IMG/VR virus record: IMGVR_UViG_3300042691_004347
Location: 1 to 31,234 of that record
Source of the DNA: a virus
DNA length: 31,234 nucleotides
Strand: one strand, 5' to 3'
Part shown: positions 1,781 to 22,871 of the stretch, piece after piece
Layout: each line of letters opens with the position of its first letter
Position numbering within the stretch: the stretch's first letter is position 1
Made by a program: the position numbers and the translations under genes
Notes under the pieces: model-generated
The model's input: the letters and a program-made list of their open reading frames with translations, nothing else
The model's database searches: none
What the model was told of the DNA's origin: nothing

Positions 1781-3211
1781 ATGGCCACCTACGGATATTC
1801 GACACCTTACACCGGAATGCGACAGCCGGTACTTCCGCCCGGTTACATGGAGGCTGCCACCGCTCCGGGACGTAACCTAGCGGCAGGCATCGCGCAGCTT
1901 GGTGCTGGTATCGGTCAGGCCATCCAGCGGTATCAGGACAACAAGGCGCAGAACGAGGCTGCCATCCAAACTGGAGAGACGCTCTTCGGCATGGCACAGC
2001 AGGCATTGGCGAGTGATCCTAGCTATCAGGCACTTCAGAACTACTACGAGACTGGCCAGTTGCCTCCCGGTGTAAGCGAGGCGGATCTCAATCGGTTTAC
2101 GCAGAAGGTTCAGGCCGATCGCTCGATGCTCAACCGCATGGTGGCTATCGGTGACAAGTTCGGAGACATGAGCCTTGCGAAGAAAAAGGCAGCCATTGGT
2201 GACGTCGCGATGTTGCTCCAGCAGTATCAGCAGCGTGGAGAACAAGATCTTCAACAACAGCTCAAACGGCAGCAGATTGCGTTGGGTAATCTCCAACTTT
2301 CAGAAGCGGATCGTCTGGCCAAGCAACGTGAAGCCGAGCGCAATGCGGTTATTGGTCTTGGTCAAATCCCCACTGAGATGCCCCAGTTCCAACCCTTGCC
2401 GGTTCAGGGCGCTGGTGAGCCTTCTGCGATGCAGGACGTCCAACGGCTTCCGCCGGTTAAACGCACCCCGGAACAGATCCGGTCTGATGCGATTGCCATG
2501 TTCAGCAGCATGGGTGTGCCGGTGCAGAGTCTTGAGTCTCTGGACAAGGCCCTTATCGCTGCTGGAAAGCTGCCTCAGGTTTCAACCGAAGAGGTTCCCG
2601 GTGTTGGAACTGTTGTCTCGATGGGCGGCGAGAGGAAGCTGGTTGAGCAGAAGACGCCAACCCAATCAGACATTGCTAGGCAACGTGCTTTGACGATCGA
2701 CTTCCCAGAATACAAGGGAATCGCTCCTACAGACAAGGAGGCTTCTGACTTCCGAGAGCAGTACGCCAACGTTTTGGACAGTAAGACTACGATTCAAAGG
2801 CTGATCGAGATTGCAAACATGGGGGCAATGCAGCAGCAGAACCCTCAAGTTAAAGCTGAAGCGGCACAGCTCGTAAATGCAGCAAAGGCAAAGCTGCGGC
2901 CTGAAATCATAGGCCAAGGAGTGGTTTCAGATAAAGATCAGGCAATTCTTGATTCAATCGTCAGAAACCCGACTGAGCTGTTTTCGCTTAAGGAGTCTAA
3001 CATAACAGCGTTAAACTCTATTCTTAATCGAGCTGAGTCTGGTCTTAAGTTGAAAGCCAAAGCTATTGGCCTGAAATCTACTCAGCCAGAAACTACGGCA
3101 GAGCAATCGCAACTCGCATCCGACCCTCGTGTGGCGTCGATCAGGGCTAGGTTCCAGTCTGGATCAATTACTCGTCAGCAAGCAGAACAAGAACTCCGCG
3201 CTCTCCAATGA
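1781..3211 (+). CDS. Helical internal virion protein
   Basis: 476 residues. The ATG at 1781 is chosen because GAGGA lies 7 nt upstream and it starts just after the previous stop; an upstream in-frame ATG at 1664 would overlap the preceding gene by 115 nt. The N-terminus (MATYGYSTPY) resembles that of the 689 gene. Then come a Gly/Ala amphipathic helix (AAGIAQLGAGIGQAI) and long Gln-rich coiled coil (about residues 130-190), a Pro-rich linker, and a charged helical C-terminal half. Ending with the stop overlapped by the start of the giant polyvalent gene suggests co-production. Probably a tail or ejection protein (inference); no enzyme motif seen. Bases after about 2640 are AT-richer than those before. 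Confidence 0.85.
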   Translation: MATYGYSTPYTGMRQPVLPPGYMEAATAPGRNLAAGIAQLGAGIGQAIQRYQDNKAQNEAAIQTGETLFGMAQQALASDPSYQALQNYYETGQLPPGVSEADLNRFTQKVQADRSMLNRMVAIGDKFGDMSLAKKKAAIGDVAMLLQQYQQRGEQDLQQQLKRQQIALGNLQLSEADRLAKQREAERNAVIGLGQIPTEMPQFQPLPVQGAGEPSAMQDVQRLPPVKRTPEQIRSDAIAMFSSMGVPVQSLESLDKALIAAGKLPQVSTEEVPGVGTVVSMGGERKLVEQKTPTQSDIARQRALTIDFPEYKGIAPTDKEASDFREQYANVLDSKTTIQRLIEIANMGAMQQQNPQVKAEAAQLVNAAKAKLRPEIIGQGVVSDKDQAILDSIVRNPTELFSLKESNITALNSILNRAESGLKLKAKAIGLKSTQPETTAEQSQLASDPRVASIRARFQSGSITRQQAEQELRALQ

Positions 3212-6200
3212 CACTATCTCAGGCTGACATCGACTCGTTGCTAGGACCACAATCGGCAGGGAGCGTTGAAAGCCTGCTGGATACTAAGTTGTCCGGTGAG
3301 GACATTGCCAACGCTCTTCAGGATCCAAACTTCACGCCTACGCAGGAGCAGTATCAGCTCTTCGAGGATTACAACAAGACGCGACAGACTGACTGGCTAC
3401 AAAGCCTGCTGACCGCTGCCGATACGGTAGTCCAGACCGCTGGAGCTGCTGGTAAGGCTGCACTGACTACTGGAGCGGCGTTCAATCCCAAGAACTATGT
3501 TGAAGGCTTGGCTCAGGGCACCGCTCAGTTGTACGGGCTGGTCGCTCAGTCTCAAGATCCAGACTCAGCACTGTTTAAGCTGAACAACCTCATCAGCGGA
3601 ACCGGAACGCTTGAGAACCGATACGGTCAGTTCCTTGAGGCTCGTCAATTCAACAAGGATCTCGATGCGTATGCTAAGGGCGACATGTCGATCATGTTCA
3701 AGCCTGAGGATCTAAACCCTGAGTTCGTGCAGGGTGTGGCCATGGTTGCTGATCCGACCATGTTCGTCCCGGGTGTTGGTCAGCTTCTGGGAGCCGAGAA
3801 GGTGGCTGCCAAGGCTCTTGGAAAAGCTGTTGGAGTCGCTGGCAAGGGTGTCCAAGCTATATCAAAGCCCGTGGAGCGTCTTTCTGCTGCTACCGGAAGG
3901 TTTGTCACAGAAGCCACTGGAATCTCTCCAGAGGCCCTGCGCGGCGCGGCAACCACGTCTGGCGTTCTGGCGGCTACAGGTGTTGGCCCTGCAATCGGAG
4001 CGGTTGGAGCGGTGCCGTTCATTGCAGAAGCTGCCACCGACGTTGGACGCGCTCTGGAATCTGCCGGTGCTCAGATGGGCATGACACCGACCCGTATTGG
4101 GGCCTTGGAGGCTGTTGGAGCTATCCCAGAGGCCAACATGCGGCAAAGGATCATCGGAACCATTGGACGTTATGGTGGAGACGCTGCACTACGCACTGCA
4201 CTTGCAGGAACTGCTGGAACGCTGGAAGGCGCTGCTCTTGGTGGTGCTCTTGGTTATCTTTCTGGCGGAGAGGAAGGAGCTGCTTCCGGAATTGGATCCG
4301 GAGGTGTGGCTGGTGCTCTTGGTTCTCTTGGCGCTCGTGGTCTGCAGACACTGACCGGTAGCGAGGCAAAGGCGGCACGACTCAACGACCTGAACACCTA
4401 CGTTGACACGCTGGCACCGGAGAAGAAGGCGGCCTATCAGTCGGTCCAAGAGCGGTTCGGAACTGACACTGCGGCCAACCTGATGGATCTGGAAAGCCTC
4501 ATCAAAGGCACTCGCGGAGACATTGGTGTAGAGATCCTGCGAGGTGACGAGTTCAAGAAGCGTGCTGGTGTCACGGCTCGCGGTGTTGTCCCTGACGAGA
4601 ATGCGGCCACTCCGCGCATCCTCATCAACGTGGACGCGATGCCCAAGGTGAAGGGTGACAGCCCGATCTACACGCTGGGCCACGAGCTGCTGCACGCACT
4701 GGCAAAGACCAAGCAGTTCCAAGGCGACGTCACCGGATTTGTCGAGACCCTTACCGGAGCCTATGTGCCCAACCCGGACGGCACGGTGCGGCTGGTTAGC
4801 GAGGGGCAATACTCACCAGCCAAGGTCGAGCAGCTCTTCAACGACTACGTCAAACAATTGCCGGAGGACGCACGCGCCAACGTCATATCGGCCAACCCGA
4901 CGGCTTCTGACCGTGCGGTCTATGTTGGTGAGGAACTGGCGGCAGAGCAGGTGGGCCGGATCCTGTCGTCTCAGAAGCCAGACGCATTCCTGCGCGGGTT
5001 CGGATCTACGCGGCAGAACTTCACAGACATGCTGCTTCTTCAGGAGGCAAGCCGTGTTGGGTCAAAGATCGGTCAACTCATCGAGCGCACGTTTGGCATC
5101 ACACCAACGGACTCGGTGCTGTTCCCAGAGATCAAGAACGCCTCCCCAGCTATTGACGCTGCCCTGCGAAGGCTTCTGAAGGCCCGTGAAAACATCGACG
5201 AGGCTCTGCTAAACGCTGACTACCAGAAGTCCTTCAAGATCGACCAGAAGGCCATTAGCGATCCAGTGGCGGCGGATTACGCGGTCCGTGGTGGATTCGC
5301 TGAGCGTCTGCCTACCGGGGAGGTGCGTCTGCTGACCAATGGCGAGCTGTTGCAGCGTGAGACCCGAGACGTCACGGCGCTCAAGCAGATCATCGACGGC
5401 CTGCCCGGTGCCAAAATCGACATCAATGGCGAGGTGGTCGGCGATCTCAGCCCGGAGCAGTTGGACGCCATCAAGGGTTCTTCGGTGTCGTCTCAGATGC
5501 AGCAGCGGTTGGAGATGACCAATCGCAGCATCAACGAAGGACGGTCGCTGTTTGTTGAGTACTACCCGGCCACCGAGAAGGTTCAGGATCCCACATCAAA
5601 GCGTTGGCGCACTAAGTACGCATCAAGGCGAGTGACGTTCCGCGAGGTGCTTCCGTATAACCTGCTGCTGTCAAAGGAGAACAACTCCTACGTCAGAGCA
5701 ATCGACCTGACTCAGGTTAGGAAATCGTTGCAACGATCCATCCGTCCTGACGGCTCCGTTGGCGGCCTATGGAGCAACGTTGGTGAGTTCCTTGGTGAAC
5801 TGAACGCCTATCTGTCGAACCTCGACCGCAAAGAGAACGCAATACCTAGCCGCAAGATCTTCGGTCCGGACAAGGCTGAGTTCTTTGGGAATTTCATGAA
5901 CTCACTGGAGAAAGGTGGCTCCGAGTTCATTCACAGCTTCCGACTGGATCGCATGGGTCAGATGGATCCGTCTGATTTCAGGGCCAAGTTCTCCGAGAGC
6001 GCATACCGCAAGATGAAGGATCGCTTCATGCCTGCGGGATCCGTGGGCGAGGAGCAGGCGTGGAAGTCTGGTGCAGGCTTCACGATCCTGACCAGTGGCA
6101 ACAAGTTTCGGTTGTATGGTCCTGAAGGAAAACTCCTCGGTATCTACGACTCCGCAGAACAAGCACAAAGGAAATCAAATGCCACTAAAACAAGGCTACA

Positions 6201-8628
6201 GCCAGAAAACGATCAGCTCCAATATCCGGCGCGAAATGAAGTCGGGCAAACCGCAGAAGCAGGCAATCGCAATCGCGCTCTCGACCGCACGCAAGGCGGC
6301 CAAGAAGGCGGGCAAGCCAACCGGCAGGTTCGACAAGAGGGGGATGTAAGGTTCATGCCGGACGTCGATCCGGATCTCATTGCACTGCACAATACCAGTG
6401 AAGAAGGTATTCGCGCAGCCTTGAGTCTTGGAGGCATTCCTGTTCCAAGCATTGGGATCACCAAGAAAAACACGGCGTTCACAGGGTATGGAGACATCAC
6501 TCTAATAGCAGACAGATCCACGATTGATCCTCAGTTGGACCCTAGAAACAAGGTGTTCAGCTCTGATGTTTACTCACCGAGACAGCCAAGACCTCACCAA
6601 TCGGTTAAACGTGGAGCAGGTGACAAGGTTTATAAGAAGATGCAATCGCTGATTCCTGAAGGATTTACTAGCTGGAGCGAGATTGCCACCGGTGAAAAAG
6701 CGCACGAACTAATTGTTGACAAAGGCCCAGACAACGTTGCCAAAACGATAGACAAACTTAGCAGATCTTCTGATGTGATGGCTGCGTTCTTGTCTGAGCA
6801 AGGAGTTGCTGTTCCAAGAATAACGCAGGAGCCAAGTCTTAGGAATAGACTTCTTAGTAATGAAACAATCAAAGATCCTAGATTGAATGTTTTAAGGCAG
6901 CACAAAGATGATTTGAGTTCTTTTATAAACACACCTGAAGGAATAGCGATTGGAGACATTGTTAGAGATATTGCTTTGGATCCATACTCCTCTGATCCAA
7001 ACATGATGGAAAGGGCGAGACGAAATCTTGTCAGTAGAGTTGGAGAATACGGGACTGAGCTTCCGTTTTCAGAAGCTGCATACCTCCAATCAGACTTGGA
7101 AACAGTTGCATCTGCGAAAAAGGAAATCGACAGGTACGCAATCAAGGACTGGTTGACGGAGCAAGTTGCAAACAAAAAACCTGAGTTTGATAAATGGATC
7201 ACAAACTTGGTTGCTGATGTTTTTGACCCTCAACAGTTTATTGTTTCAGGAAAAACCAAGAAGCCTTACACGCTTGAGAACTTAGTCGGTCAAATGACCC
7301 GTAAAGTGCTGGCGCAAGAAGGTGGCATGACTTATTCACTTGGAAAAGCTAGGGCAAGCTCTGCATCTACTCTTCCAACGGTTGAGGCAATGAGATCGGC
7401 AAGTGGTTCTTTGACCGACTCATCAAAGATGAAGGAGTTTAAGGATTCACTTAGTAAGGAGTTTTCAGATATTGCCGAAACGATGTCGACGTATGATGTC
7501 TTTTCTAGTGTGTTTGATAGGATGGATAGGTTGTCTGAAGCTGTTGGTAAAATCGCAAAACGTCCAACAAGTGCTTCATCTGTTTTGTCTAGGGCTGATT
7601 TCAAAGATGTTCCTGTTGATGTTGTAAAACGAGTTCAGGCTTTTGCAGAGAAACTTAACAAAGCCCCAACTGAATACTTTGAAGCAAAGCCTCAGAGAGC
7701 TGTTGGTATCAATGAGTTCAAAGCTGCAGTTGTTCCTGAATCTACATCTCCTGAAGTTGTTAATGCTTTGAAGCAGTCAGGGTTGACCGTTGAAACATAC
7801 AAAGGTTCAGAAGATAGAGTGGCTACGGTGGAGCGTGTTTCTGGAGAAAGAAACCTTCGCTTCATGCCTTCGGACTCCGAGTACCTGTCAGCGGTACAAG
7901 CTGGGGATACGGCGAAGGCGCAGGAACTCGTGGATCAGGCGGCGAAGGCTGCTGGATATACGGTGGGGCCGGTGTATCATGGAACAAGCGCAGAGTTCAC
8001 AGAGTTCAAGCGCGGTGATCTAGGGATCCATTTCGGAACTAAAGAGCAAGCATCTGGTCGAGGTGGAACTCGTGAAATACGGGCCTTCTTGAAGGCGAAA
8101 CCAATCCGTATTGACGACGATCCCGGGTTTTGGATGGGCCGAAAGATCGTTAATTTGCTGTCGGATCAAGGAGTAAACAAAACAGAGTTAACAAAACTAT
8201 TTAACAAAGCAGCGAGCGAAGGTGGATCCTCTGGGGAGCCTAACAGTAGCGCCGACATTCTAGCTCGCGGCCTAATTGAACTAGGAATCGACTCGATTCA
8301 ATATCCAAACAAGTTTGAGGGAGTTGGTGATAGCGTTGTTGTTTTAGATCCATCCCAGATCAAATCCGCCGACCCCATCACCCGCGACGATGCCGGGAAT
8401 GTGATACCCCTGAGCCAACGATTCCAGCAAAGCAGCGCGGACATCCGGTACATGCCCGCCCCGGTTCCCGACCCATCCATACCCGGTGCCTACTCCATGT
8501 CTGGCTACCGCATCCTTCCGGGCAAGACTAAGAGCAAGCTGCGGGTCTACTCTCCAGATGGCTCATTGGCTGGCGTAGTCGGTTCCGTGGATGACGCGCA
8601 GCGGATGATCCAAAAGAAGCTCCAGTAA
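3208..8628 (+). CDS. Giant polyvalent virion protein: metallopeptidase, uncharacterised modules and ADP-ribosyltransferase-like module
   Basis: 1806 residues, ATGA-coupled to the preceding gene. Layout: residues 1-170 helical; 175-420 several Gly/Ala-rich hydrophobic stretches of the type seen in ejected membrane-active proteins; 430-600 a zinc metallopeptidase-like module with H492-E493-x-x-H496 ([10 protein letters not shown]) and candidate third ligand E575/E576; 620-935 helical, charged; 955-990 a small beta module; 991-1047 Gln/Arg-rich linker that overlaps another gene; 1048-1550 an AT-rich module opening with an ALHNTSE...GGIPVPSI...GDITLI block that I recognise from large phage and conjugative-element polyvalent proteins; 1555-1746 an ADP-ribosyltransferase-like module (Y1590-H-G-T, G1606-x-H-F-G, and [16 protein letters not shown] near its end); 1764-1806 a second copy of the small beta module. 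Four R-F/Y-M-P motifs (939, 1048, 1551, 1747) separate the modules. Polyvalent proteins are thought to act against host defences after delivery with phage DNA; delivery here is inferred from position. Confidence 0.9.
6179..6349 (+). CDS. Nested small conserved phage protein ([11 protein letters not shown] family, DUF6496-like)
   Basis: 56 residues, wholly inside the giant gene in its +1 frame. It starts [16 protein letters not shown] and contains [17 protein letters not shown], a pattern I recognise from many small basic phage proteins (usual form MPL-x-K-G-x-S-K-K-T-I, then KPxKQAxAIALSxARK), so this is very unlikely to be a chance frame. AAGGA at 6168-6172 lies 6 nt before the ATG, an excellent ribosome binding site. 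The longer in-frame ATG at 6095 is rejected because family members start at MPL. In the giant frame the same bases encode a low-complexity Gln/Arg/Asn linker. The TAA stop (6347-6349) touches the Arg codon of the second RFMP motif. Function unknown; the many Lys/Arg suggest nucleic-acid binding. Confidence 0.7.
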
Positions 8629-13983: not shown

Positions 13984-14189
13984 GCGAACGAGTAACCGTC
14001 AGGGAGTATCAGACGCGCCCGGGAGTCTGGGTGGTGGACGCGGACTTTGCGCACAAACTGGCTGAAGAACTAGACCAAGCGAAGGAGCGAATCGAACAGC
14101 TCGAAGGTTTGCTGGCCGGGGAAAAGTGGATCTCAGAAGACCGCAAGGCGCTGGGTGAGGTGCTGCGAATCGTGGAGGCCAAGCCATGA
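13980..14189 (+). CDS. Small coiled-coil hypothetical protein
   Basis: 69 residues, ATGA-coupled both sides. A beta-like N-terminus (SERVTVREYQTRPGVWVVDA) precedes a heptad helix (KLAEELDQAKERIEQLEGLL). The final GGAGG serves as ribosome binding site of the next gene and is part of a 16-bp repeat seen again one gene later. Function unknown. Confidence 0.7.
   Translation: MSERVTVREYQTRPGVWVVDADFAHKLAEELDQAKERIEQLEGLLAGEKWISEDRKALGEVLRIVEAKP
14174..14189 (+). repeat. 16-bp gene-junction direct repeat, copy 1
   Basis: GGAGGCCAAGCCATGA covers the Shine-Dalgarno sequence, the last codons of one gene and the start of the next. A perfect second copy is at 14449-14464. The two copies bracket exactly one gene (275 bp apart), a layout that could let that gene be gained or lost by recombination without disturbing translation. 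Confidence 0.8.
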
Positions 14190-16700: not shown

Positions 16701-16816
16701 GGGAGCTGCTGGACGACGCTCCTAGACTGGTCGAGAGGGCTATTCTCAAGGGCTGGATCCAACCGCCCAAGTACAAGCTCACGGACGCCCAGATTGACAA
16801 CCTGATGAGGAGGTAA
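16631..16816 (+). CDS. Small hypothetical protein upstream of the structured leader
   Basis: 61 residues, overlapping the winged-HTH gene by 70 nt in a different frame. After a basic start (ALHSKKRGNEVQ) it has two helices (SDSEVRELLDDAPRLVERAI and LTDAQIDNLMRR). It ends at a GAGGAGGTAA-rich sequence followed by the structured non-coding leader. Family not recognised. Confidence 0.65.
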   Translation: MALHSKKRGNEVQGDPKLSDSEVRELLDDAPRLVERAILKGWIQPPKYKLTDAQIDNLMRR

Positions 16817-16977
16817 TATTTCAGAACTGTTCCGATTGGAACCGGGATTCGCACCCCGAGCACCATGACACACAAAGCCCCCAGTCCAGCCAGCAACGAA
16901 GGTATGTGGTTCCCAATGGGTTCCACGGTGCACCTGTGCGAACGTTGTTGGTTGGACTGGGGTTTTTGTTTCATACC
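16817..16977 (+). ncRNA. Structured leader/attenuator before the replication genes
   Basis: 161 nt without a gene. The dominant feature is a perfect 20-bp stem (16879-16898 with 16943-16962, two G-U pairs) whose base is CCCC/GGGG, followed by TTTTTGTTT (16963-16971), a classic intrinsic-terminator layout. Its 44-nt loop carries a hairpin (GTGG 16906 with CCAC 16923; CCC 16912 with GGG 16918). An upstream segment ATTGGAACC (16835-16843) can instead pair with GGTTCCCAAT (16908-16917) inside that loop, so the two structures compete or form a pseudoknot. TATTTCAGAA and TCAGAACTGT motifs sit at 16817-16830. The ATG 15 nt after the stem has no Shine-Dalgarno sequence. This is more likely an attenuator or RNA regulatory element than simple noise. 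Confidence 0.6.
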
Positions 16978-17724
16978 ATGAGCGAGAAGAAGAGATCCCC
17001 AGCGTTCCAGTTCTATGCGGACGACTTCCTGTCCGGGACGATGACGATGACCAACGAGGAGCGAGGAGCTTACATTGCTCTTCTCTGCGTCCAATGGTCT
17101 AAAGGTTACGTAAGCCAAACAGACTTCGACCGCATGACTCTGGCAATGCCACCGCATTCCCAAGCCATATGCCAAGAGAAGTTCGAGAAGGATGCCGAAG
17201 GATGCATGAGGAACGCTAGGCTTGAGAAAGAAAGGCAGAAACAGGCGTCATACAGGAAGAAACAGACAGAAAACGCCAATTTGCGATGGCATGGCAGTGC
17301 CAACCCAGATGCCAAAGAGATGCCACCGCATATGCCAGAAGCATGCTCTCCGTCTCCGTCTCCTAGTAATACTCTAAACCATACGGGCTCGGATGAAGAT
17401 CCAGAGGTTGAGACTCTCAGGCTACGCATCGGATCTTGGTTCAAGCGTCGGCCCACGACCAAGTGGAGCGAGAAGGAAATCCGGGCGCTGAAGTCTGTCC
17501 TGAAGCTCAACACTCCGCCCGAGGACATCGACGCTCTGGAGCGATGGTATCTGTCGGGTGATCCATACCTTCGCCGAGATCCGTTCACCCTACTGAACAA
17601 CTGGAACGGCGAGATCGACAAGGCACGTGGCAAAGCAAGCGCACCACAGCTCTTCCAACGCCATGCACCGGACACCAGCAAGTACACGGCGGAGCAGATT
17701 GCTCTCATGGAGGCCATGGGATGA
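16978..17724 (+). CDS. YdaU/DUF1376-like replication protein
   Basis: 248 residues. The ATG at 16978 is chosen because an upstream in-frame start at 16906 would read through the hairpin. The N-terminus (PAFQFYADDFLSGTMTMTNE then ERGAYIALLCVQWS) is the typical DUF1376/YdaU domain found just upstream of DnaB-type helicase or DnaC genes in phages. The centre is Pro/Ser-rich and disordered, and the C-terminal part has a helical domain (TTKWSEKEIRALKSVLKL) ending in ALMEAMG. An origin-recognition or helicase-loading role is inferred from family and neighbour. ATGA-coupled to the helicase. Confidence 0.82.
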   Translation: MSEKKRSPAFQFYADDFLSGTMTMTNEERGAYIALLCVQWSKGYVSQTDFDRMTLAMPPHSQAICQEKFEKDAEGCMRNARLEKERQKQASYRKKQTENANLRWHGSANPDAKEMPPHMPEACSPSPSPSNTLNHTGSDEDPEVETLRLRIGSWFKRRPTTKWSEKEIRALKSVLKLNTPPEDIDALERWYLSGDPYLRRDPFTLLNNWNGEIDKARGKASAPQLFQRHAPDTSKYTAEQIALMEAMG

Positions 17725-19025
17725 ACTCGGACGCCTACTTCGCGCCCAAGGATGAGCTGGGAATCCTCGGGGCATGTCTTTCGGGAGACACGGACGTGGC
17801 ATCTGAGGTGGTCTCCTTGGTTCAGCCGGAGATGCTGGTCAACGAGGACGTCAGGTTCACTCTGGAGCTTATAGCCGGACTGGTGCGCCAGAACCAACCG
17901 GCGTCCGTGGAGAGGCTAACCAAGGAGTGGAACAAAGCCCACGGTTCATTGGAGATCCCGATGGCTACTTGGGCGGAGGCCATGTCCGCATGTCCATCAG
18001 CCAGCATGGTCAGCTACTTCGCGGACGGCATACGCGAGGCGCACCTACGTCGTAAGCTGAGGGAACTCGGATCCAAGATCATTGAAGGCTCCGGCAACTC
18101 AGCGGTCAGCATCGACGAGGTGCTCAAACAGGTGGAATCCGGCATGGTCCTAGACTCGGCACCACAGACCGACTCCTGCAGTGCCAAGGATGCCATCGTC
18201 AGCTTCATCGAAGCCACACAGGAACGTTGGAAGCGCAATGGCGAACTGAGCGGCGTGCCGACTGGCATACCCAAGCTCGACTCTATGCTCGATGGCCTGC
18301 AATACCGCGAGCTTACCCTAGTCGCCGCACGTCCCAGCATCGGAAAGACAGCCATGGGAACCTCCATCGTGGCCAATGCTACGGTCATCCACAAAGTGCC
18401 GACCCTGTTCGTCTCTTGCGAGATGTCCACCAATGCCATCACCAGACGCCTCGTCTCGTGCATCTCCGGGGTATCCATGCAGTCGATCAAGACGGGTCAG
18501 CTCAAGGACAACGACATGGCCCGGATCCAAGCGGCCAACATCAAGGTCAAGAACTCCCCGATCCACTTCCTAGACCTATCCGCCGGGGCTAAGATCGGAA
18601 CGGTAACCTCAGCCATCCGACGAGCTGTCCGGAAGCATGGCATCAAGCTGGTCATCGTGGACTACCTCCAGAAGATCGGCGCAAGCGGACGCTACGAGAA
18701 ACGAACCTACGAGGTGGCCGAGGTATCCGGAACGCTGAAGGCTTGTGCAGCTTCGACCGGAGTGGCTATGCTAGCCCTCGCACAGCTCAACCGTGAATCG
18801 GAAAAGGAGAAGGGACGTAAACCACGACTCAGTGACCTAGCAGACTCTGGTCAAATCGAACGAGATGCCGACACAGTCCTCCTCCTAGATCGCAACCGAG
18901 TAGAACCAAGAGGTGAGGCAACCATATCAATCGCTAAACAACGAGACGGCGAGTGTGGACTGGTGACCTGCCACTACGAAGGTGCTTATTGTAGATTTGA
19001 ACCTGCGCTATTGCAGGATTCGTAA
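17721..19025 (+). CDS. dnaB: DnaB-type replicative helicase
   Basis: 434 residues. N-terminal helical domain 1-110, linker, then RecA-fold ATPase: Walker A ARPSIGKTA (203-211), catalytic Glu in VSCEM (E234), Walker B VIVDYLQ (D314), AQLNRESE (355-361) and DLADSGQIERDAD (372-384), then the Arg-containing KQRDGECG. It matches bacterial DnaB order and length. It unwinds DNA at the fork as a hexamer; with no phage polymerase or primase here it must recruit host enzymes. ATGA-coupled to the YdaU-like gene. Confidence 0.93.
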   Translation: MNSDAYFAPKDELGILGACLSGDTDVASEVVSLVQPEMLVNEDVRFTLELIAGLVRQNQPASVERLTKEWNKAHGSLEIPMATWAEAMSACPSASMVSYFADGIREAHLRRKLRELGSKIIEGSGNSAVSIDEVLKQVESGMVLDSAPQTDSCSAKDAIVSFIEATQERWKRNGELSGVPTGIPKLDSMLDGLQYRELTLVAARPSIGKTAMGTSIVANATVIHKVPTLFVSCEMSTNAITRRLVSCISGVSMQSIKTGQLKDNDMARIQAANIKVKNSPIHFLDLSAGAKIGTVTSAIRRAVRKHGIKLVIVDYLQKIGASGRYEKRTYEVAEVSGTLKACAASTGVAMLALAQLNRESEKEKGRKPRLSDLADSGQIERDADTVLLLDRNRVEPRGEATISIAKQRDGECGLVTCHYEGAYCRFEPALLQDS

Positions 19026-21041: not shown

Positions 21042-22871
21042 ATGCCAAGCATAAGCGAGTATCATCGTGAAGAATCCGAGTCGGTCATACCAGATGCGTC
21101 AGGCATAGGGGGGGAGGGGGTCGAGCATTCGGCTGGGCGCTCAACGGTGACGCATTCCCCAATCGGAAAAAACTTTGCAAACCGCCCTGCTCGCAAGTGC
21201 CTGACCTGCTCCAAGTCGTTCATCCCTGACAAGGAGACCAACCGCTTCTGCCGGGAGAAGTGCAACATCGCGTGGTGGAACGAGCAGCCGCAGCATCCTG
21301 TGATCCCCAAGGTCCGTGCGGACCATCCAAGAGCCTTGGAGCTACGTGAGCAGCGGACACAACTGTGCCTGCTGGAGAAGGCGGATCCCTTCACCTACGG
21401 CTTCGTTCCGGACCACTGGGAGCTGGCGAACAAGGTGTGGGCTGAGTGCTCTGAGCTGCTGATCTCTGGTGGCAACCGGGCTGGGAAGACCCTGTGGGCC
21501 GCTAGGCGGGTGGTGGAGACGCTACTCTCGAAGGAGAACTGCAACGTGCTCTGCTGCCACACCAGCAATGCGACGTCGGTGACGGTACAGCAGCCTGCGA
21601 TCTATCAGTACCTGCCGGTGGCTTTGAAGGCTACCAAGAAGGGGAAGATCCACTACCTGAACTACAGCCGGAAGAACGGCTTCACCGACGGCTCCTTCAT
21701 CCTGCCTAACGGTAGCCGCTGTGACTTCCTGAACTACACGCAGTCGGAGAACACGATTGAGGGTCGGGAGGCGGACCTGATCTGGTGCGACGAGCTGGTG
21801 CCGCAGAGCTGGGTAGATACGCTGAGGTACCGTTTGGTTACACGTAGGGGTAAGCTGCTGGTGACGCAGACTCCGCTCGAGGGTGTGGCGAGCGTGTACA
21901 AGGAGTTCACTGGGGGTGCGGCGATTACCGAGTGGCATGGCGGGCAGATGCTGGCTGGGAAGCAGGGATTGCCCACATGGCCTGTAGGGAAGGCCCCTAG
22001 GGTGATGCGGCTGGAGAAGCAGAATCGGTCCACGGTGTTCTTCTTCTCCGAGGACAACCCGTACAACCCGTGGGACGAGATGAAATCCAAGCTGGTTGGT
22101 GCGCCGATGGGACAGATCCTGACGCGTGCCTATGGTTGGGCGAGCGACAACATCGGCAAGGCGTTTGCGCGGTTCAGGCCAGAGACTCACTGCATCCCTA
22201 GAAGCAAGATTCCGGATGGAGGTACGCTGTACATGGTCTGCGACCCGGCTGGATCTAGGAACTGGTACTGCCTGTGGATGCTGGTCTACGAGGATGGGCG
22301 CAAGGTTGTGGTTCGCGAGTTCCCGGACTTTACCGGATACGGCGAGTGGGCGTTGCCGAGCGAGAAAGCGGACGGGAAGCCGGGTCCAGCGCAGACGTTG
22401 GAGGCGGGAAGGAGTGTGATCGAGTACCGGCAGTTGTTCCGGACCATCGAGGAAGAGATTGGCCGTGGGGAGCCGGTCATGCGGCTGATTGACCCTAGAG
22501 CGGGTGGCAGCCCGGCACTCAGCGAGCAGGGCGGTACAACATTGATTGACCTACTGGCCGAGCCTAGCGATCAGGATGATGGCATGGCGTTCATTCCAGC
22601 GCCGGGTGTGCCTGTGGATCAGCGGACTGCGGCGATCAACTCGGACCTGAGTTATGACGTCACAAAGCCACTGACGTCCTTGAACGAGCCGAGGCTGTAT
22701 GTGGTGGACGACCTGCACAATCTGATCTGGTGCATGAGCGAGCATACTGGTCGGGATGGGCAGAAGGGTGCATCGAAGGATCCGATCGACTGCTTGGGCA
22801 TGCTACTCATCTCCAAGATCGAGCATGTGGGTGCCGGTGGGCTGGATAGCTACGGCGGAGGGGGGTATTAG
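21042..22871 (+). CDS. terL: Large terminase subunit (ATPase and nuclease) with N-terminal zinc finger
   Basis: 609 residues. Disordered 1-48, then a zinc finger C53-x2-C56-x13-C70-x3-C74, unusual for TerL. The packaging ATPase has Walker A GGNRAGKT (143-150), Walker B DLIWCDE (245-251) and the TPLEG motif III (278-281). The nuclease half carries D401 (MVCDPAG), D484 (RLIDPRAGG) and D580/D583. It cuts and pumps concatemeric DNA into the prohead with the portal. A strong Shine-Dalgarno sequence supports the start at 21042, keeping the zinc finger in the protein. It is the first gene of the head operon after its own promoter. Confidence 0.93.
   Translation: MPSISEYHREESESVIPDASGIGGEGVEHSAGRSTVTHSPIGKNFANRPARKCLTCSKSFIPDKETNRFCREKCNIAWWNEQPQHPVIPKVRADHPRALELREQRTQLCLLEKADPFTYGFVPDHWELANKVWAECSELLISGGNRAGKTLWAARRVVETLLSKENCNVLCCHTSNATSVTVQQPAIYQYLPVALKATKKGKIHYLNYSRKNGFTDGSFILPNGSRCDFLNYTQSENTIEGREADLIWCDELVPQSWVDTLRYRLVTRRGKLLVTQTPLEGVASVYKEFTGGAAITEWHGGQMLAGKQGLPTWPVGKAPRVMRLEKQNRSTVFFFSEDNPYNPWDEMKSKLVGAPMGQILTRAYGWASDNIGKAFARFRPETHCIPRSKIPDGGTLYMVCDPAGSRNWYCLWMLVYEDGRKVVVREFPDFTGYGEWALPSEKADGKPGPAQTLEAGRSVIEYRQLFRTIEEEIGRGEPVMRLIDPRAGGSPALSEQGGTTLIDLLAEPSDQDDGMAFIPAPGVPVDQRTAAINSDLSYDVTKPLTSLNEPRLYVVDDLHNLIWCMSEHTGRDGQKGASKDPIDCLGMLLISKIEHVGAGGLDSYGGGGY

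Follow-up and report, generated by a model that had tools for sequence, protein, structure and literature searches.

A covarying pseudoknot with a short, probably coupled leader ORF precedes replication genes in uncultured phages

The DNA analyzed here, hereafter the window, is a 31,234-nt contig from a poorly known phage group (IMG/VR record IMGVR_UViG_3300042691_004347, positions 1 to 31,234). A leader RNA element of about 150 nt lies in this 31-kb contig downstream of a small ORF and upstream of a gene encoding a DUF1376/primosomal protein (gene 1), that is, immediately 5′ of the first gene of a DNA-replication cassette. The product of gene 1 matches PF07120 (E-value 2.8e-6, slightly below the curated cut-off) and phrog_9327 (E-value 1.5e-10). 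Searches of the window for tRNA and tmRNA genes found none, and a scan for sigma-70-like promoters, the only type scanned, found none on either strand between positions 14000 and 20000. A strong Shine-Dalgarno-like sequence, GAGGAGGT, is present at 16807-16814, where the small upstream ORF ends; it has no ATG, GTG, or TTG at suitable spacing and is absent from loci L003 and L006. Elsewhere in the window, positions 3208-8628 encode an 1806-aa protein that matches only PHROGs of unknown function, and positions 21042-22871 encode the large terminase, for which the best match among deposited phages (Phage C75C1) is 30% identical. The features of the locus are listed below; types A and B are the two main sequence types of the element, and the window carries type A.

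16829..16842, plus strand: P0 hairpin GTTCC-gatt-GGAAC, type A only, predicted in every type-A relative
16843..16858, plus strand: P1 hairpin CGGG/CCCG, with the PK1 5′ strand as its loop; GGG/CCC in 22 of 22 type-A elements
16848..16854, plus strand: PK1 5′ strand TTCGCAC, pairing with 16936-16942; covariation in types A and B
16860..16864, plus strand: PK2 5′ strand GCACC, adjoining the start codon of the short leader ORF (uORF) and pairing with 16927-16931; covariation
16865..16981, plus strand: uORF of 38 codons, its TGA overlapping the gene 1 ATG (ATGA); starts and stops compared in 99 elements
16879..16898, plus strand: 5′ arm of the 20-bp stem P2; in type A, 99.3% of cells paired and six doubly changed pairs
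16900..16903, plus strand: P2b 5′ strand AGGT, forming a small inner helix with ACCT at 16932-16935; weaker evidence
16906..16926, plus strand: P3 hairpin in the P2 loop; predicted in type-A relatives, with unrelated sequences
16927..16931, plus strand: PK2 3′ strand GGTGC; covariation in types A and B
16936..16942, plus strand: PK1 3′ strand GTGCGAA, abutting P2; covariation in types A and B
16943..16962, plus strand: 3′ arm of P2, same stem and same type-A covariation
16963..16977, plus strand: U-rich spacer separating P2 from gene 1, supported by the T counts after P2
16978..17724, plus strand: gene 1, DUF1376/primosomal protein (PF07120, phrog_9327), without a Shine-Dalgarno sequence
17721..19025, plus strand: gene 2, DnaB-type replicative helicase (PF03796, E-value 4.5e-69)

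The dominant structure of the leader is P2, in which CCCCAGTCCAGCCAGCAACG (16879-16898) and CGTTGTTGGTTGGACTGGGG (16943-16962) form 20 uninterrupted pairs with a duplex energy of −39.2 kcal/mol, followed directly on the 3′ side by TTTTTGTTTC. The perfect 20-bp stem with a U-tract described in the sequence-only reading is thus present, with the correction that two of the pairs are G-U rather than Watson-Crick. The predicted fold of the entire leader reaches −71.6 kcal/mol, compared to −48.5 ± 4.3 kcal/mol for shuffled sequences (z = −5.4). As covariation shows, the loop of P2 pairs back with the sequence 5′ of P2 through two helices, PK1 and PK2, so that the element is an H-type pseudoknot that is compatible with P2. 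In the 5′ to 3′ direction, the elements of both types consist of P1 with the PK1 5′ strand in its loop, the PK2 5′ strand, an ATG, 12–18 nt, the P2 5′ arm, P3, the PK2 3′ strand, the PK1 3′ strand, the P2 3′ arm, the U-rich spacer, and the start of gene 1; in type B, the PK2 3′ strand sits inside the P3 loop. P3 bears out the earlier observation that the loop of the stem contains a hairpin of its own. For the small helix P2b, the relatives present AGGC/GCCT and GGGC/GCCC vs AGGT/ACCT in the window, which is weaker evidence.

A search of IMG/VR with the DUF1376 protein produced 237 relatives, of which 80 were kept, and scans of IMG/VR for the stem pattern added further elements, resulting in at least about 100 distinct relatives of the element, all in contigs of uncultured phages. 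The two main sequence types have one and the same architecture; type B is the more common one and has divergent relatives. A model of type B produced no type-A match, and the type-A model scored type B at noise level at most; thus, the two types share a design but not a recognizable sequence. In each of 26 contigs of 23–66 kb, the element occurs once, additional minus-strand hits being the same site read in reverse. One candidate, L085, was rejected as a chance match of the stem pattern to an unrelated repetitive sequence. Comparison of the window with the Rfam 15 covariance models yielded no matches at the gathering score, and eight loci representing both types gave no matches at E ≤ 1; the suggestion that the element follows the logic of riboswitches or phage antitermination RNAs accordingly finds no counterpart among the known riboswitch or phage RNA families in this collection. 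At the DNA level, no similarity to cultured phages was detected for the type-A or type-B element together with gene 1, and a query from L142 that comprised the element and a methylase gene matched cultured phages in the methylase part only. In bacteria, DUF1376 relatives turned up in one Parabacteroides and in two Verrucomicrobiota MAGs, none of them with a clear element. In one Verrucomicrobiota MAG (L224), about 430 nt 5′ of a DUF1376 relative, we observed a hairpin, GGGAATTCGCACCTTCCC, with a loop like that of type-A P1, and GTGCGAA further downstream; this locus was not scored by the type-A model, which found nothing in the L224 genome, and 388 genomes of the same phylum contained no match to the type-B model.

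The evidence for the pseudoknot comes from covariation. The type-B alignment comprises six helices with 40 pairs, compared over 69 distinct sequences; 97.5% of the cells are paired, 17 pairs have changed at both positions, and the covariation score is 0.263. The respective means for shuffled alignments are 89.9%, 12, and 0.130, and none of the 500 shuffles reached the observed values, whereas a single measure out of five, the count of additional pair types, was not above the shuffles. When the partners were slid by 1–3 columns, about 40% of the cells were paired. PK1 of type B is paired in 100% of the cells, with three doubly changed pairs, and PK2 in 97.7%, with four such pairs; the type-B counterparts of P1 (an 8-pair helix) and P3 contain five and three doubly changed pairs, respectively. 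In type A, PK1 is a perfect 7-bp complement in all 22 elements (two of these scored with the register offset by two) and is realized by eight helices that differ in sequence: the window has TTCGCAC/GTGCGAA, and the others are TTCACAC, GTAGCGT, GTAGCAC, GTCGCAT, TTTGCAC, GTGAGAA, and CTGAGAA with their complements. Additional PK1 sequences are TTGACAC/GTGTCAA in L082 and, in type B and its relatives, GTAGGAA, CTAGGAA, and GTAGGAG; the L057/L060 subgroup seems to contain a bulge in PK1. Altogether, complementarity is kept across about a dozen different PK1 sequences, which would be hard to explain by descent alone, even though the counts of covarying pairs do not represent independent events because the sequences are related. 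Both sides of type-A PK2 change together as well, although this helix is short (4–8 bp) in some elements, and concerted change of PK1 and PK2 extends to the divergent relatives. The case for PK1 rests on these comparative data because the window taken alone is unconvincing, with a 7-bp complement found in 9.6% of the shuffles. P2 of type A includes one invariant G-U pair, and P2 of type B, which is interrupted by an internal loop, has G-U in 29 cells and A-C in none; together, these features point to an RNA of the plus strand rather than the minus strand or DNA.

The G+C-rich base is the most invariant part of P2, and at least five T occur within the first 8 nt past the stem in 97 of the 106 elements, so that the G+C-rich stem and the ensuing U-tract together resemble an intrinsic terminator in these 97. 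One type-A sub-lineage (L033, L096, L098, L100, and L104) has lost the U-tract, with only 2–3 T in its place. The spacer between P2 and gene 1 is mostly 14–15 nt long (range, 12–19).

The uORF starts 0–3 nt past the PK2 5′ strand in all subtypes, with ATG in 96 of the 99 distinct elements and GTG in the remaining 3, and its frame is open through P2 in 98. A stop at the start of gene 1, a feature of IncI- and IncFII-type leaders, is found in 87 of the 99 elements (within −8 to +2 of the gene 1 ATG), compared to 43 and 12 in the two alternative frames; these counts come from related sequences that are not independent, and the +1 and +2 frames are often open too. In type A, the distance from the uORF start to gene 1 is 113, 116, or 119 nt, all of which fit the ATGA overlap; in L033, it is 112 nt. 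In 11 of the 99 elements, the uORF extends into gene 1 further than expected. Typically, the uORF lacks a Shine-Dalgarno sequence (match of at most 3 nt in 86 of 99). The codons that precede P2 vary mostly in a non-synonymous manner, and the C-terminal part is read in different frames among the subtypes, which suggests that it is translation rather than the peptide that is conserved and selected; for the same reasons, we dropped the possibility that the uORF encodes a conserved small protein. The only element in which the uORF stops inside P2 is the type-B element L197, where GGTGGGG is changed to GAGTGGGG, a change that also restores a U-A pair; this early stop provides a natural test of whether it matters that the uORF reaches gene 1. 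As a separate observation, an A follows the gene 1 ATG in all 99 elements (16981 in the window), so that every gene 1 begins with ATGA, including those for which the uORF already ends at −6.

The start codon of gene 1, at 16978, is located 15 nt past the stem and, as noted previously from the window, lacks a Shine-Dalgarno sequence; this turned out to be general among the related elements, where the longest match is at most 3 nt in 88 of 95 cases, compared to at least 4 nt in 59 of 87 for gene 2. Where a DUF1376 gene does not follow the element directly, it may possess a Shine-Dalgarno sequence, for example, in L012 and L032. The identity of gene 1 is not constant: the families found behind the element are DUF1376, replication initiation proteins, a 70-aa protein, HNH endonucleases, and a C5 methylase, the last of which retains GGAG. 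In L038, L134, L107, L035, L142, and L082, an HNH endonuclease or a C5 methylase takes the place of DUF1376, and the exchange point lies only a few nucleotides past P2. Thus, the element stays in place while the downstream gene is exchanged, behaving as a portable expression gate. Autoregulation by gene 1 was dropped from consideration given that this gene varies between phages.

From the structure defined by covariation, we infer a mechanism that we favor with little more than even confidence: the knot masks the uORF start, and a ribosome that manages to bind there unwinds the stem and then reinitiates at gene 1. With PK2 ending 0–3 nt before the uORF start and P2 beginning, in the window, about 14 nt after it, a canonically bound 30S subunit and the knot should exclude each other. 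In the folded state, there would be no single-stranded landing site for the 30S subunit at the uORF start, and both the uORF and gene 1 would remain untranslated. A ribosome could load before the 3′ strands are transcribed and paired, or once something opens the pseudoknot; it would then translate the uORF, unwind P2, terminate at the start codon of gene 1, and reinitiate there. Synthesis of the replication protein would be limited in this manner to nascent transcripts or to some signal. ATGA overlaps commonly couple translation by reinitiation, for which a Shine-Dalgarno sequence is helpful but not always needed (PMC6728339), and the combination of a coupled uORF with a gene 1 start that lacks such a sequence points to translation rather than transcription as the gated step. 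Several facts run against translational gating by the knot. The uORF itself has no Shine-Dalgarno sequence that would let ribosomes load once the knot is open; some gene 1 families, such as the C5 methylase, keep GGAG; the U-tract fits a terminator equally well; and the overlong overlap with gene 1 in 11 of the 99 uORFs and the early stop in L197 depart from the expected arrangement.

The main rival, which we consider rather unlikely, is that the same gate acts on transcription, P2 and the U-tract being an intrinsic terminator, as the resemblance in 97 of the 106 elements allows: a ribosome on the uORF would block P2 and let the polymerase read through, with the knot gating the uORF. The invariance of the G+C-rich base of P2 is consistent with this possibility, which has transcription attenuation in common with the sequence-only reading; however, the sub-lineage with only 2–3 T keeps both the knot and the uORF, the loss of the Shine-Dalgarno sequence at gene 1 is left unexplained, and a simple terminator scan, limited to short loops, does not list P2, so that attenuation is not the best explanation of the data. 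Alternatively, the pseudoknot could be the ON state that, similarly to an IRES, brings ribosomes to the uORF start. This explanation is improbable, and we know of no natural bacterial precedent for such fold-driven entry. It would account for the missing Shine-Dalgarno sequence of the uORF in phages in which gene 2 usually has one, as well as for the pseudoknot helix that ends next to the start codon in all subtypes, and if true, it would mean that a throw-away uORF supplies ribosomes to replication genes whose own ribosome-binding site has been lost. Yet, there is no space for canonical initiation between a helix at −1 and a P2 stem starting at about +14, and the intergenic region (IGR) IRES functions in E. 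coli without its fold, via S1 and an AG-rich element (PMC9458429).

More improbable still is a site for a regulatory protein or a small molecule (an autogenous operator or a riboswitch) that stabilizes the pseudoknot. H-type pseudoknots over the start site are employed in the T4 gene 32 leader as well as in the SAM-II and preQ1 riboswitches; however, the free exchange of gene 1 speaks against autoregulation by its product, inspection by eye reveals no evident conserved unpaired nucleotides common to types A and B besides the start codon, and there is no match in Rfam. A long double-stranded stem that is located between genes and adjoins replication genes might also be an RNase III processing site or a DNA-level element, such as an origin or a cruciform, but this is very doubtful: neither requires PK1 and PK2 or the uORF, the type-B P2 is broken by its internal loop, and the 29:0 ratio of G-U to A-C together with the invariant G-U is indicative of plus-strand RNA. 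The least credible of the alternatives is the switch proposed in the sequence-only reading, in which ATTGGAACC (16835-16843) pairs with GGTTCCCAAT (16908-16917) in competition with the stem. Both sequences are present at these positions, and a duplex of −8.8 to −10.3 kcal/mol can form in the window, where full-length pairing requires a bulged C, but the pairing fails the conservation test: close relatives have a weaker version with an invariant 3′ side, the other type-A relatives, which are the majority, do not keep it, no compensatory change was seen, and no counterpart was seen in type B. In all type-A relatives, the 5′ segment of the proposed pairing belongs to the local hairpin P0, the sequence of which varies (GTCCC/GGGAC, GTCCTC/GAGGAC, and TCACC/GGTGG). 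Strict mutual exclusion of the two structures finds no support either, given that the conserved PK1 and PK2 can coexist with P2. The covariation that had been proposed as a check is found in PK1, PK2, and P2 and is missing in the ATTGGAACC/GGTTCCCAAT pairing, and what survives of the original proposal is its broader part, a structured cis-acting RNA with strongly covarying cross-pairing between leader and loop that probably gates the replication genes.

Among the known systems, those nearest to the element in its proposed function are repB/repA of IncB, repY/repZ of ColIb-P9, and tap/repA of IncFII R1, which likewise place a leader ORF and a pseudoknot before a replication gene. In the I-complex plasmid leaders, the pseudoknot is described as the switch; it forms after translation of the leader, activates expression, and is controlled by an antisense RNA. 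Unlike in the plasmid leaders, the phage PK strand abuts the start of the leader ORF itself, and no antisense RNA is indicated. In the I-complex plasmids, translation of the leader peptide is needed for expression of the replication gene (PMC10286972). No sequence relation to the I-complex or IncFII plasmid leaders was found. The phage element would work like a coupled-leader switch, as an analog rather than a proven member of the plasmid leader families. Gene 32 of phage T4, a replication gene, likewise has a pseudoknotted leader, and gp32 binds this leader of its own gene; unlike in that case, the gene downstream of the element is not constant, and a coupled uORF is present. With the dicistrovirus IGR IRES, the element shares nested pseudoknot helices beside a start codon without a Shine-Dalgarno sequence, but the start codon marks the end of the IGR IRES, whereas that of the phage uORF is enclosed by the fold and followed by a long stem. 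Finally, STAXI, manA, wcaG, and further candidate RNAs from phages or metagenomes are similar in being motifs from comparative genomics, some of them pseudoknotted, that are located near phage or DNA-processing genes (PMC2864571); unlike STAXI, which is described as tandem pseudoknots, the phage element is single in each contig and produced no covariance-model match.

In the open-access literature, a scope outside which most subscription journals lie, we found no description of this element, and as far as searched, the RNA family is previously undescribed. It would add a widespread, strongly covarying family to the few known cis-regulatory RNAs of phage replication genes, one that joins a two-helix pseudoknot with a start codon at its edge and a sequence-neutral ORF that would deliver ribosomes to a gene lacking a Shine-Dalgarno sequence.
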